Assembly (NCBI GenBank): GCA_021413925.1
Contig: JAIOPL010000001.1
Location: 1 to 64,000, forward strand
Length of the DNA: 64,000 nt
Reading direction: 5' to 3'
Source: Verrucomicrobiota bacterium
Lineage (GTDB): Bacteria; Verrucomicrobiota; Verrucomicrobiia; Chthoniobacterales; UBA6821
Part shown: piece after piece, positions 1-8,243 of the stretch
How positions within the stretch are numbered: the stretch's first letter is position 1
Layout of the letters: every line of letters starts with the position of its first letter
Notes under the pieces: generated by a model
Told to the model about the DNA's origin: nothing
The model's database searches: none
Seen by the model: only the letters and a program-made list of their open reading frames with translations
Made by a program: the position numbers and the translations under genes

Positions 1-15
1 CACAAGCGTCCGGTT
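1..15. repeat. IS left terminal inverted repeat
   Basis: These bases match the reverse complement of 1290-1304 at 13 of 15 positions. The transposase stop codon begins one base inside this repeat, so the coding frame runs right up to the end of the element. Confidence 0.75.
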
Positions 16-1189
16 ATAAGTCCCACAGCATCAATTGGTTATTTTTGTGAGGCATGTAAGATTTGAAGTCGGTTTCTGTAAGTAGCTCATGGATAGGAAC
101 TTTCTCAAAAGGATGAATGCTCAAAAGCTGGAAGGTTCTGTGGAGTCTGCCAGGGAGTTGGAGCTGCTTGTGGAGGATGGCCACCATCAAGTAAACGGCG
201 ACCGCAATCCAGATCTGGCTCTTCACCGCATTGGGGCTCGTACCGAAGTAGTGTTTGATGCGCAGGTGGCCTTTGATCCACTTGAAGAAGAGTTCGATCT
301 GCCATCGCGACTTGTAGAGCTTGGCCACGGTGAGAGCGGGGATCTCCAGGTTGTTGGTGAGGAAGACAAGATGCTTGGCGGTCTCCTTGTCGAAGTAGCG
401 CACCCTGCGCAGAGGATATGGGAAGTCGGCCGCTGCTTTGGGAAGCGATGGAGATCCAATTTGATCGCTGAGAACACCCTCCAAGCAATCCCGAGGGAGC
501 GATCGATGACGGGTGAAGCGAAGATTGCTCTTGGCCCTCGTGACGAAGAAGGCGCCTGCCAAAACGATACGAGCAAGTCGAGCAAAGTCCATGTAGGCGC
601 GATCCATCACATAGAAGGCTCCCGCTTCGAAGAGCAGGTCGTCGAGCCAGTGAACATCGGCCTTGCGGGCTCCGGAGATGTGGATGCATGTCGGGATAGG
701 GCCTCTCAGATCGAGCTGGGTATGCATCTTGATCCCAGCTTTGGTGCTTCGAAAATCGGCCCATGGGAAGAGACTCAGCGAGAGATCGATCGTGGTGGAA
801 TCCAGAGCGTAAACCGTGTTCTCCAGTTCCAATCCAAGATCCTCTCCGGCGTAGAGGACACGTGCCTTGCGCATGAGCCCTTTGGCGAGATCTTCCCAGA
901 GTCTCCAGTCCCTCTGCTCGTTGGCATCGGCCAAGGTGGACTTGGCAACTCTCTCTCGAAAACCAAGATGGTAGAGGGCTTCGCTTCGGGCGTTGAGACA
1001 GGTGGCGATATCGCGCAGTCCTTCCCTCCAGGTCAGTTGCGCAAAAGCCATACAGATCAACTGCTGTCGGTAACCGAAATGCCGAACTTTGCTCTCCGCG
1101 TCGTAGCGTTGGACCAAACGGGAGAGAGTCTGCCAGTGGACCAGATCGAGGACTTGGGAAAGGATGTAGCGGCCGGTGTTCATTGCCAC
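14..1189 (-). CDS. IS4-family DDE transposase
   Basis: This 391-residue protein catalyses cut-and-paste transposition. The catalytic triad is visible: D130 in the ALDSTTIDLSLS stretch, D196 in YVMDRAYMD, and E299 in YKSRWQIELFFKWIK. The last stretch fits the IS4 signature Y-(2)-R-(3)-E-(6)-K exactly (Y292, R295, E299, K306). The first 100 residues form an N-terminal domain of the kind often seen in this family. There is no frameshift or internal stop, and the length is normal. An alternative start two codons downstream (MNTGRY) is possible. Confidence 0.93.
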   Translation of the reverse strand: MAMNTGRYILSQVLDLVHWQTLSRLVQRYDAESKVRHFGYRQQLICMAFAQLTWREGLRDIATCLNARSEALYHLGFRERVAKSTLADANEQRDWRLWEDLAKGLMRKARVLYAGEDLGLELENTVYALDSTTIDLSLSLFPWADFRSTKAGIKMHTQLDLRGPIPTCIHISGARKADVHWLDDLLFEAGAFYVMDRAYMDFARLARIVLAGAFFVTRAKSNLRFTRHRSLPRDCLEGVLSDQIGSPSLPKAAADFPYPLRRVRYFDKETAKHLVFLTNNLEIPALTVAKLYKSRWQIELFFKWIKGHLRIKHYFGTSPNAVKSQIWIAVAVYLMVAILHKQLQLPGRLHRTFQLLSIHPFEKVPIHELLTETDFKSYMPHKNNQLMLWDL

Positions 1190-4987: not shown

Positions 4988-5575
4988 TTATTCTTCTGCC
5001 TGCAAATGGGCTGCGAATTTCCGGACAATCCTCGGATAGAGCTCGTGCTCAGCGACCTGGATCCGGGTATGGAGCGACTCGGCGGTATCGGCAGGAAGAA
5101 CGGGAACGCGGCTCTGGCCGAGAATCTTACCCGTATCGACTCCGGCATCGACCAGATGGACGGTGCAACCGGCCTCAGGCACGCCTGCCTCGACGGCCTG
5201 ACGCCAGGCCTCCAGTCCGCGGAAGTCAGGCAGGAGCGATGGATGGATATTCAGGATGCGGCCGGGGAAGGCATGCAGAAGGGGTTCCTTGATGACTCGC
5301 ATGAATCCCGCCAGCACGACGAAATCGACCTTGGCCTCCCGGAGCAGGCGGATGATTTCTGCTTCGGCTTCGGGTGACATCTTGGTCCGGAAGGGACCCG
5401 GTGAGACAAAGCGACAGGGGGTTTCAAACTCCCGGGCCAGATCCAGAATGCCCGCATGCTCGACATCGGAGAGGACGAGCGCTGGTTGAGCGCCCAAGGT
5501 TCCAGACTGAAACGCCTCCGCTAGGGCCCTGAAGTTGGATCCTTTTCCCGATCCCAGAACCCCGAAACGGAGCAT
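4988..5575 (-). CDS. purN: Phosphoribosylglycinamide formyltransferase
   Basis: PurN transfers a formyl group from 10-formyl-THF to GAR, the third step of purine synthesis. Starting at MLRFGVLGSGKGSNF (ATG at 5575), the protein has 195 residues, the normal length. The substrate loop GSGKGSNF, the catalytic ILNIHPSLLPDFRG (Asn and His) and VHLVDAGVDTG (the Asp) are all present. The frame is open upstream to 5695, but that part crosses the rpmA terminator hairpin and is not conserved in character. It lies downstream of rplU-rpmA on the same strand, separated by that terminator. Confidence 0.93.
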   Translation of the reverse strand: MLRFGVLGSGKGSNFRALAEAFQSGTLGAQPALVLSDVEHAGILDLAREFETPCRFVSPGPFRTKMSPEAEAEIIRLLREAKVDFVVLAGFMRVIKEPLLHAFPGRILNIHPSLLPDFRGLEAWRQAVEAGVPEAGCTVHLVDAGVDTGKILGQSRVPVLPADTAESLHTRIQVAEHELYPRIVRKFAAHLQAEE

Positions 5576-5606
5576 GGGCGATTCCCGGGAGGCGGATAAA
5601 ACAGAA

Positions 5607-5632
5607 ACCCCCGGCATGTGAGCGCCGGGGGT
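5607..5632 (-). terminator. Rho-independent terminator of rplU-rpmA
   Basis: A perfect 9-bp stem (5607-5615 with 5624-5632, sequence ACCCCCGGC) has an 8-base loop. On the minus strand it is followed by the T-rich tract TTTCTGTTTT. It lies 35 bases after the rpmA stop and in front of purN, so it ends the ribosomal protein transcript. Confidence 0.85.
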
Positions 5633-5666
5633 GTTCATCCCTTCTTGATGGGAAGAAAAGAGTGCC

Positions 5667-5936
5667 TTACTTGGCGGAAGCCTCTGCCGAAACAACGGGA
5701 TCGACGTTCACTCGGCGACCGGCCTGATCGAATCGTACCTTGCCCTCGATAAGAGACCAGATCGTGTAGTCACGTCCAAGACCGACATTACGGCCGGGAA
5801 GGAATTTGGTTCCACGCTGGCGGATGATGATATTCCCGGCGATCACGGTCTGATCGCCGAATTTCTTCACACCGAGGCGTTTGCTTTCGCTATCGCGTCC
5901 ATTCTTGACGCTTCCCTGTCCTTTTTTATGTGCCAT
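5667..5936 (-). CDS. rpmA: 50S ribosomal protein L27
   Basis: This 89-residue L27 starts [16 protein letters not shown], with the conserved basic N-terminus that reaches the peptidyl-transferase centre. The body motif [12 protein letters not shown] is the L27 signature. The start directly gives AHKKG, so no Firmicutes-type cleaved extension is present. It follows rplU in the usual order. The tail VVSAEASAK is slightly longer than the typical end. Confidence 0.97.
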
Positions 5937-5983
5937 GGCAGTAGGTGGGTTGGATTAAAGGTTTGGTAAAAAAGTGACGAAGA

Positions 5984-6298
5984 TTAGGCGGAGATCTTGG
6001 TGATCTTCAGCTCGGTGAGCTGACGGCGATGGCCGACGGTGCGGTGATAACCTTTGCGGCGCTTGAACTTGAAGGCTATCACCTTCTCATCCTTGTACTG
6101 ATCGACGACCTCGGCCTGAACCGTGGCTCCCGATACGTGCGGTGTGCCAAGGGTGACCTTGTCGCCGTTCACGACGAGGAGGACATCGCTGAAAGTGGTC
6201 TCTTTGCCGGTTTCGACAGCGAGCTTCTCGACACTCAGGACGTCTCCTTCGGAGACGCGGTACTGCTTGCCGCCGGTTTGGATGATTGCGTAGGACAT
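5984..6298 (-). CDS. rplU: 50S ribosomal protein L21
   Basis: From MSYAIIQTGGKQYRV (ATG at 6298) the protein has 104 residues, as expected for L21, which binds 23S rRNA. The C-terminal KFKRRKGYHRTVGHRRQ is the family signature. An in-frame ATG 12 codons upstream adds residues with no family resemblance, so I reject it. The gene is divergent from the tRNA-Leu, and the shared intergenic region (6299-6421) must hold both promoters. Confidence 0.96.
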   Translation of the reverse strand: MSYAIIQTGGKQYRVSEGDVLSVEKLAVETGKETTFSDVLLVVNGDKVTLGTPHVSGATVQAEVVDQYKDEKVIAFKFKRRKGYHRTVGHRRQLTELKITKISA

Positions 6299-6377
6299 GG
6301 GAAAATCTTTGGAAAAGGAGTGAGATGATGCCACGGAAGAGTTCGGGAGACAACAACATTTTTGTTTATTTTCCCTC

Positions 6378-6405
6378 TTGCCCGAATGTCATCTCCCCGT
6401 ATGAT
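6378..6405 (+). promoter_or_regulatory. Probable promoter of tRNA-Leu
   Basis: TTGCCC (6378-6383) and TATGAT (6400-6405) are separated by 16 bases. A start about seven bases later would put the 5' end roughly 10 bases before the mature tRNA. The -10 box matches the consensus at five of six positions. Confidence 0.6.
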
Positions 6406-6421
6406 GCCCAACCCATCTAAT

Positions 6422-6505
6422 GCTCGGGTGGTGAAATGGCAGACACGTGCGTTTAAGGGGCGCATGCCGAAAGGCATGAGGGTTCGAGTCCCTCCCCGAG
6501 CACCA
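6422..6505 (+). tRNA. tRNA-Leu, anticodon AAG
   Basis: This class II tRNA folds fully. The acceptor is GCTCGGG/CCCGAGC, the D stem is GTG/CAC, and the T arm is GAGGG-TTCGAGT-CCCTC. The long variable arm is TGCC-GAAA-GGCA, and CCA is encoded. With base 26 = G, the anticodon stem is TGCGT/GCGCA with loop TTAAGGG, so the anticodon is AAG. Reading it as TAA would need a shifted stem with a G-G mismatch and no base 26. The sequence looks like a common tRNA-Leu(GAG) (…TTGAGGGG…) with G34 changed to A34. Confidence 0.9.
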
Positions 6506-6526
6506 TCTCCAGCCGTTGGCTGGAGA
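6506..6526 (+). other. Hairpin immediately 3' of tRNA-Leu
   Basis: A perfect 9-bp stem (TCTCCAGCC, 6506-6514 with 6518-6526) has a 3-base loop and starts directly after the CCA. There is no T tract, so it is not a classical terminator. It may protect or guide 3' processing of the precursor. Confidence 0.6.
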
Positions 6527-6530
6527 GGGG

Positions 6531-6601
6531 GAAAGTGAAAGGTAAAAGGTATAAAAGTACCTTGTCGGTCTACCGACCTTAGACCTTCCTACTTTTTACC
6601 T
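6531..6601. repeat. Short-word intergenic inverted repeat (AAGGTAAAA type)
   Basis: Bases 6531-6562 are built from short words such as GAAAGGTAAAAGGTA. Bases 6578-6603, read in reverse complement, give AAGGTAAAAAGTAGGAAGG. Between them is a small hairpin (GTCGGT-CT-ACCGAC, 6564-6577). The whole can fold into a long imperfect stem. Similar word-repeat elements sit at 8351-8456 and 37276-37438. Confidence 0.6.
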
Positions 6602-7177
6602 TCACGCCAATAGAGTCTCCGCTGGATGATCGGCGATTCCGCTCAGTTCGATCAGTTTCCTGAGTAGAAGCAGCGAGGCCAAGGCATCCGAGAGCGCCTC
6701 ATGCCATCGGAAATCAGGAAGCAGAGAACGTGCATCCACCTCCAGTGAGAGTTCGCCTACCAGATCGGAGAGCGCATAGGAGGAACGCCCTGGCAGAATC
6801 TTACGACTCAGCGTCAGCGTATCGATCCAAGGACCGAATCCATGCATGGGAAAGGCCCGCAGGTAACGCTTTTCCGTTCCGACTCCATGGGCGACCATCC
6901 AGCGTCCTCCAAGGCGCTGCTTCAGCTCAGGCCAGAGGGAAAGGAGTTCGGGAGCATTCCGCAGATCCTCATCGCTGATTCCGTGGATCAGTTGAGCGCT
7001 CCAAGTCACGGGGCGTAAGGCCTTGAGATAACTCCGATAAAAGGATTCTTGCGATACGGCGAGATCGTGCATCCAGGCAATGCCGATCTGAACGGGAACT
7101 CCGGCTTCGTTCGCGCGCTCACCAGCAGATTCAAAATCAAGCGCCGCAAAGGAAAGCTCCCTGACGGTCAGTGCCAC
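6602..7177 (-). CDS. DEDDh-type 3'-5' exonuclease (DnaQ-like)
   Basis: From a GTG at 7177 (VALTVRELSFAALDFES) this has 191 residues, one RNase T/DnaQ-type exonuclease domain. Exo I is ALDFESAG (D and E). Exo III is HEALSDALASLLLL (H and D). In Exo II the usual HNxxFD is replaced by AHGVGTEKRYL, so the aspartate position carries Glu or Thr. The start lies 13 bases after the DAHP synthase stop, suggesting co-transcription. The longer open frame upstream lies inside DAHP synthase and is spurious. The specific substrate is unknown. Confidence 0.75.
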   Translation of the reverse strand: MALTVRELSFAALDFESAGERANEAGVPVQIGIAWMHDLAVSQESFYRSYLKALRPVTWSAQLIHGISDEDLRNAPELLSLWPELKQRLGGRWMVAHGVGTEKRYLRAFPMHGFGPWIDTLTLSRKILPGRSSYALSDLVGELSLEVDARSLLPDFRWHEALSDALASLLLLRKLIELSGIADHPAETLLA

Positions 7178-7190
7178 GGGAAAGAAGAAG

Positions 7191-8243
7191 TTACGCTTTG
7201 CGGAGCAGCTCCGCCGTCGACTCCCAGTCAAGGCAGGCATCCGTGATCGAGACGCCATAGCGAAGCTTGGAGGGATCACCCTCCAGCGACTGGGCTCCAT
7301 GCTCGATATGGCTCTCCAGCATCGCTCCGACAATGTCGCCACGACCTCCGCCACGCTGATCCAGGATGCTGTTCCAGACCTCGGGCTGACGCGCCGGATC
7401 CTTGCCGCTGTTGGCATGACTGCAATCGATCATGATGGCCGTCGGCACTCCGGCGGCCTTGAGCTTGGCGGCAGCATCAGCGGTCTGATGGGGATGGTAG
7501 TTCACCCCGTCGCGTCCGCCACGGAGCACAAGGTGACCGTCGGGATTGCCTGCCGTCTTGATGATGCTGGTCATGCCCTCCTGGTCAATACCGAGAAAAC
7601 TGTGGGCGCTGCGCGAGGAGCGCATGGCATCGATTGCCGTCTGGATACTGCCGTCCGTGCCATTCTTGAAGCCGACCGGCATCGAGAGGCCGCTGGCCAT
7701 CTCGCGATGTGTCTGGGACTCCGTAGTTCGCGCCCCGATAGCCGACCAGCTGATCAGGTCCGCGATGTACTGGGGCATAATCGGATCGAGCACCTCGGTG
7801 GCTGCGGGCAGGCCAAGAGCCGCGACATCAAGCAGGAGTTGGCGGGCCACTTTGATGCCGTGCTGCATATCGCCGGAGTCGTTCAGGTAAGGATCATTGA
7901 TAAGCCCCTTCCATCCGACAGTCGTGCGGGGCTTCTCGAAGTAGACGCGCATCACGAGGAAGAGCTTGCCTTCAACCTCTTTGGCTAGTTCCGCAAGTCG
8001 GCGCGCGTAGTCGAGTGCGGAGACGGGATCATGGATCGAGCAGGGACCGACGATGACCAGAAGGCGGGGATCCTCGCCACGCAGGATACGGCGGCAGGTC
8101 TCACGGTATTCAGTCACCTTGGCAAGGACTTCAGCACTGGCAGGAAGCCTCTCCTTGATCTCGCGGGGAGAAACAAGACGCGTCACACCGCACACACGGG
8201 TATTTTCGGTGCGGGGCTTATCGGAAGTGTCTGTCGTGGTCAT
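7191..8243 (-). CDS. aroF: 3-deoxy-7-phosphoheptulonate synthase, class I (AroF/G/H type)
   Basis: This enzyme condenses PEP and erythrose-4-phosphate, the first step of the shikimate pathway. From MTTTDTSDKPRTEN (8243) it has 350 residues, the length of E. coli AroG. The family motifs LLVIVGPCSIHDP, YFEKPRTTVGWKGLINDP, SWSAIGARTTESQTHREMASGL, GFKNGTDG and MIDCSHANSGKDP (metal and substrate ligands) are all present. Which aromatic amino acid inhibits it cannot be told, so the symbol is for the family. Twenty-seven extra upstream codons look unlike the family and are excluded. Confidence 0.93.
   Translation of the reverse strand: MTTTDTSDKPRTENTRVCGVTRLVSPREIKERLPASAEVLAKVTEYRETCRRILRGEDPRLLVIVGPCSIHDPVSALDYARRLAELAKEVEGKLFLVMRVYFEKPRTTVGWKGLINDPYLNDSGDMQHGIKVARQLLLDVAALGLPAATEVLDPIMPQYIADLISWSAIGARTTESQTHREMASGLSMPVGFKNGTDGSIQTAIDAMRSSRSAHSFLGIDQEGMTSIIKTAGNPDGHLVLRGGRDGVNYHPHQTADAAAKLKAAGVPTAIMIDCSHANSGKDPARQPEVWNSILDQRGGGRGDIVGAMLESHIEHGAQSLEGDPSKLRYGVSITDACLDWESTAELLRKA

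Follow-up and report, generated by a model that had tools for sequence, protein, structure and literature searches.

The question raised by this locus is how CUC and the other codons of the CUN box are read in a genome in which a tRNA-Leu gene with the anticodon AAG is found and the usual GAG gene is not. The gene lies at positions 6422-6505 (forward strand) of the window, by which we mean the whole stretch of 64,000 nucleotides analysed here, and it belongs to the draft genome G000 (2.40 Mb, 32 contigs, 95.5% complete). ARAGORN folds it into a complete class II cloverleaf with an encoded CCA, in which the loop UUAAGGG occupies bases 6453-6459, the anticodon AAG bases 6455-6457, and A34 is base 6455. 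In a cmsearch run over the whole genome it scores 46.2 bits against RF00005 (gathering score 29), and the long variable arm, A73 and NAG anticodon of a class II tRNA-Leu are all present, which bears out the A34 tRNA-Leu of the original prediction. A likely promoter, TTGCCC and TATGAT with 16-base spacing (6378-6405, forward strand), was picked out by eye, and genus members have similar upstream flanks. Beyond it lies rplU for ribosomal protein L21 (5984-6298, reverse strand; TIGR00061, 123.5 bits), which synteny marks as a conserved neighbour, and on the other side of the tRNA there is an exonuclease-like gene (6602-7417, reverse strand; PF00929, 52.2 bits). Near the left end of the window a transposase gene with a PF01609 DDE domain and DUF4372 was also seen (14-1189, reverse strand).

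G000 encodes 40 tRNAs according to the RF00005 covariance model, all of which were named by ARAGORN. Its leucine anticodons are AAG, TAG, CAG, CAA and TAA, and neither the covariance model nor ARAGORN found a GAG tRNA-Leu in this draft assembly; the only other A34 tRNA named by ARAGORN is Arg(ACG). CUC is the commonest leucine codon in the open reading frames of the window (17,173 codons), where it makes up 33% of the leucine codons and CUU 22%, and rpoB of G000 contains 58 CUC and 22 CUU among 103 leucine codons. By the wobble rules, no other tRNA detected in this genome is expected to read CUC well. As no GAG tRNA was found and CUC is the commonest leucine codon, the tRNA-Leu(AAG) must read CUC, and therefore inosine is called for at its wobble position. 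We thus consider it quite likely that this is a working tRNA-Leu in place of the usual GAG tRNA, whose A34 would be deaminated to inosine by the TadA of G000, and which would then decode CUU, CUC and probably also CUA as leucine. Here we infer both the deamination and a TadA that accepts the loop UUAAGGG besides that of tRNA-Arg(ACG), its usual substrate. The Arg loop CUACGGA has U33, A34, G36 and G37 in common with the window tRNA, whereas positions 32, 35 and 38 differ, as do amino acid and tRNA class. The widened TadA range suggested from the start is thus the best explanation, with no GAG tRNA found and tadA present, and altered leucine decoding holds as a synonymous wobble change. It does not hold as a changed codon meaning, as CUN and UUA codons stand opposite mostly leucine in homologues, and in the homologue alignment CUU matches leucine at 0.89 and CUC at 0.91.

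Some features of the tRNA itself count against the inosine reading. In the predicted fold the anticodon loop is closed by wobble pairs, and the loop fits the S. pyogenes editing motif YUAMGRA at positions 32-37 but fails at position 38, which is G here and A in the motif. If A34 stayed unmodified, the tRNA would be a good reader of CUU and a poor one of CUC, and two-out-of-three reading or a tRNA-Leu(UAG) with modified U34 would help with the latter. According to the available part of the O. oeni work, some A34 tRNAs of that organism (Thr, Ser) are indeed not edited (PMC8072771), and no TadA was detected in three genomes carrying the A34 gene, but poor reading fits badly with CUC as the top leucine codon, also in rpoB, and unmodified A34 leucine tRNAs are reported to disfavour the C-ending codon strongly (PMC11066159); we therefore regard an unmodified A34 as improbable. 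That a deaminase other than TadA makes the inosine appears very unlikely: a RibD-like frame with the deaminase fold does occur in G000, but PF14437 gives only this frame and TadA, and RibD is already known for a function of its own. Editing may not require an altered TadA, because partial modification of an orthogonal AAG-anticodon tRNA by the E. coli enzyme is reported (PMC11066159). For S. pyogenes, the available portion of the source describes a tRNA-Leu that is not modified by E. coli TadA and a TadA of its own that edits its tRNA-Leu(AAG) fully in vivo (PMC11472039).

The gene might also be an artefact, that is a pseudogene, a read error or a wrongly read anticodon register, and indeed a quick Rfam scan of positions 5500-7500 listed no entry and missed this tRNA as well. 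The full cloverleaf, the compensated stem changes and the occurrence of A34 in 15 genomes speak against this, and the family survey refutes it, which leaves such an origin with next to no probability. A sequencing error at 6455, which the original prediction had allowed for, is excluded by the presence of the same A34 gene in 15 of 22 family genomes. A compensated exchange in the stem fixes the AAG register: the pair is A28:U42 in G34 relatives and G28:C42 in the window tRNA. The TAA register, read from the sequence, produces a G-G mismatch in the stem; moreover, the TAA tRNA is encoded by another gene.

For the family survey the 22 family genomes, which are draft assemblies, were searched with a tRNA-Leu pattern that covers the D and anticodon arms. 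A34 was found in 15 of them, G34 in four (G003, G006, G007, G014), neither in three (G011, G019, G021) and both in none. A normal GAG tRNA beside the A34 gene, which would have made the latter a possible relic, was thus found neither in G000 by covariance model and ARAGORN nor by pattern across the 15 A34 genomes. Stray pattern matches, one each in G010 (TGAGG) and G015 (TAAGG), are not tRNAs. In other families of the order, 33 of 36 genomes have G34 and none has A34. Among 213 genomes of the order, the exact A34 arm occurs in 15, every one of them in the family of G000 (0 of 191 elsewhere). A search for the arm gave 31 sequence stretches, 14 of which match family genomes and are labelled Spartobacteria (8), Chthoniobacterales (2), Verrucomicrobia or Verrucomicrobiia (3) and plain bacterium (1); the NCBI taxonomy puts Chthoniobacterales within the Verrucomicrobiota. 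We attribute locus L125 to G017 and not to G018, because its downstream flank is the same as that of L094. Judging by isolate names, many of the family stretches are presumably of lake origin.

The remaining 17 of the 31 stretches represent 16 genomes of Clostridia, Mageeibacillus, Ruminococcus MAGs, Candidatus Firestonebacteria and two other bacteria, and the titles of the Clostridia, Mageeibacillus and Ruminococcus MAGs are mostly animal-gut. ARAGORN names a tRNA-Leu(AAG) in 29 of the 31 stretches, L111 and L117 being cut by a contig end. The identity of the arm across these groups holds by construction, as the search pattern fixed the arm, and the tRNA bodies differ from that of the window, so we take the A34 tRNAs of the groups outside the family to be of separate origins. 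In the 15 of these 16 genomes that were searched (that of L111 excluded), no G34 tRNA-Leu matched by pattern and TadA was found. A phage origin was considered and rejected: 17 phage records match partially and the annotated ones are tRNA-Leu, but by the count of the search tool no record reaches 80% coverage of the query at a single place.

The tadA gene of G000 lies outside the window (G000:C13:91986-92495) and scores 157.3 bits against NF008113, for which the NCBI cut-off is 150. A full-length TadA was found in 11 of the 15 A34 genomes and a partial one in another; in G005, G009 and G016 the search gave a RibD-like match or nothing. The TadA frame of G010 holds one TGA. G016 (genus g2; 97% complete, about 20 contigs) has the A34 tRNA and a RibD-like frame only, and rpoB was not found in it either; both absences are likely an assembly gap, and a real loss of TadA there, if true, would be interesting.

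In an alignment of 50 TadA rows, read by eye, residue 108, by which we mean the column of the His in E. coli AMIHSR, is Asn in nine of the 11 A34 genomes and His in G010 and G015. It is His in all four G34 members, Asn in the three family genomes of undetected tRNA state, and His or Leu in the 32 outgroup rows. A column scan, run after residue 108 had already been noticed, passed positions 89, 108, 121 and 151, among which 108 alone is without Asn in the outgroups. The association of Asn108 with the A34 state is suggestive only, and no test on this residue can reach significance because there are only two independent contrasts. A strict marker does not emerge, as no position splits all A34 from all G34 genomes. 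The K in VTKEPC, odd when compared with E. coli, was dropped, being present in all 50 rows. Opposite the Asn of GASNQK in S. pyogenes TadA, the family enzyme retains Asp. At the place of E. coli D108, other A34 lineages have Glu (Firestonebacteria), Ser (G215 and G220), Asn (S. pyogenes) or Asp (Clostridia), a comparison made among A34 lineages. In E. coli numbering we take the places concerned to be H96 and D108, both presumably near the substrate. Looking by eye at the TadA sequences of A34 Clostridia (L307-L309, L311, L312, L315), we also saw that they lack a segment around the conserved NHR motif that precedes the last helix, which may possibly be tied to substrate range.

If inosine drove leucine codon choice, its effect might be sought in CUU and CUC usage. 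Within the genus the raw CUU share of CUU plus CUC is 0.41 in A34 members and 0.31 in G34 members, but GC3 fully separates the two groups, and after correction by other codon boxes no shift is left (p 0.23; rpoB alone p 0.94). CUA relative to GUA is -0.20 in A34 members and -0.89 in G34 members, and the outgroup value of -0.68 (sd 0.75) spans this. Codon usage was therefore rejected as support for inosine, the raw CUU difference being confounded with GC3 and the corrected measures null.

How the A34 gene arose can be approached by comparing its body with G34 relatives. The gene had been thought to be a normal GAG tRNA with one change, which does not hold for the genus: the window tRNA differs from the G34 tRNA of its genus sisters G003, G006 and G007 at six positions (28, 34, 42, 50, 57 and 64 by tRNA numbering), corresponding to about four events. 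The fourth G34 member, G014, is outside this comparison, its tRNA being cut in the available stretch. From the G34 tRNA of G024 (family f4) the window tRNA differs at three positions, 34 and the pair 50:64, and a single change between an A34 and a G34 tRNA is seen only for family member G016 when compared with G027 (family f7). The G34 tRNA of G003, for its part, shows no difference from that of outgroup G030 in the 81 compared bases, while its promoter flank, by eye, is like that of its A34 sisters. The tRNA has rplU as its neighbour in 14 of the 15 A34 genomes (rplU was not seen within 3 kb at G010), in three of the four G34 family genomes, with G014 outside that check, and at two of eight outgroup loci (G030, G041).

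The species tree was built from eight proteins, with TadA left out, and has 25 of 27 rows, G011 and G021 having been dropped for too few columns. On this tree two changes account for the A34 state, and fewer are incompatible with its well-supported branches. The four G34 members cluster together (75/95.9, short of the starred support level), and their group adjoins the A34 group containing G000. A single A34 clade is rejected by the AU test (p 5e-59), for which the group had been defined by the tRNA before any tree and which was run when the tree had already been seen. The simplest reading is that A34 replaced G34 in the ancestor of the family and that one clade later returned to G34. From the gene sequences we infer that the G34 gene body of that clade was replaced by recombination with a G34 donor, which is favoured because six exact back-mutations are unlikely; repeated acquisition of A34 through exchanges of this sort would fit as well.

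Another leucine tRNA of the genome, outside the window, deserves separate mention. The sole UAA tRNA-Leu found in G000 (G000:C19:30744-30816; L030 1501-1573) is a 73-nt class I tRNA with a short variable loop, G1-U72 and A73, and its T arm resembles that of the class II tRNA-Leu(UAA) of relatives. This short form occurs in 12 of 16 genus genomes, in none of which (0 of 12) a class II UAA tRNA matched. The class II form was found by pattern in G015 of the same genus, in all six genus g2 genomes and in 33 of 36 genomes of other families, and was confirmed by ARAGORN in G015, G016, G019, G020 and G021; in G005, G006 and G010 neither form matched. In short-form genomes, UUA codons stand opposite leucine in 83% of 249 pairs (81 sites), and the meaning of UUA seems unchanged. 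The short tRNA has the appearance of a bacterial tRNA-Leu whose variable arm was lost. A literature search gave no title on a tRNA-Leu without variable arm of this sort, and this tRNA may surprise more than the A34 tRNA. Directly next to it, in L417 (G000:C19:22900-31200), there is an integrase gene of the tyrosine-recombinase type (PF00589), and 7.5 kb upstream the initial 38 bases of the short tRNA are repeated, with partial copies also in G001 and G013; this is probably an integrated mobile element that uses the short tRNA as its site.

Editing of tRNA-Leu(AAG) to IAG is described in the accessible parts of reports on the wine bacterium O. oeni (PMC8072771, PMC8266599), on S. pyogenes (PMC11472039) and on oral streptococci (PMC13249217), the last of which, as far as available, places almost all bacterial tRNA-Leu(AAG) genes in the class Bacilli and gives a synonymous leucine codon shift as a trait of tRNA-Leu(IAG) lineages. 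Our literature search, with most subscription papers and two surveys by Rafels-Ybern beyond its reach, gave no title on Verrucomicrobiota with tRNA-Leu(AAG). As in these Lactobacillales (Oenococcus oeni, Streptococcus), the tRNA is of class II, has A34 for G34 and no GAG partner was found, and TadA is present. Unlike there, the phylum is another one, the loop has G38 instead of A38, TadA has Asp where that of S. pyogenes has Asn, and no shift in codon usage was seen. Compared with the tRNA-Leu(GAG) of other genomes of the order Chthoniobacterales, the body is nearly identical and the wobble base is A34 instead of G34. We would thus see here the known kind of tRNA-Leu(IAG) in another phylum, the Verrucomicrobiota. 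What is new is the lineage, the G34 clade nested among A34 members with a tRNA differing at six positions and an apparently vertical flank, the same A34 arm in Clostridia, Firestonebacteria and two other bacteria, and a loop with G38.

A wider reading, which we offer as doubtful though conceivable, is that leucine decoding has been repeatedly remodelled in one Spartobacteria family. A34 would have replaced G34 at the base together with a TadA accepting the new loop, helped by Asn108; one clade, its TadA with His, would have regained a whole G34 body through recombination that did not extend beyond the tRNA gene; and in the same genus the UUA-reading tRNA would have lost its variable arm. If this were true, the widening of TadA would be reversible, and several groups of bacteria would have arrived at it along different routes. 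The family also offers an independent case in which to test whether leucine codon choice is driven by inosine, and no such drive is seen here. With close A34 and G34 relatives at one orthologous locus, it could reveal the TadA residues that set substrate range.
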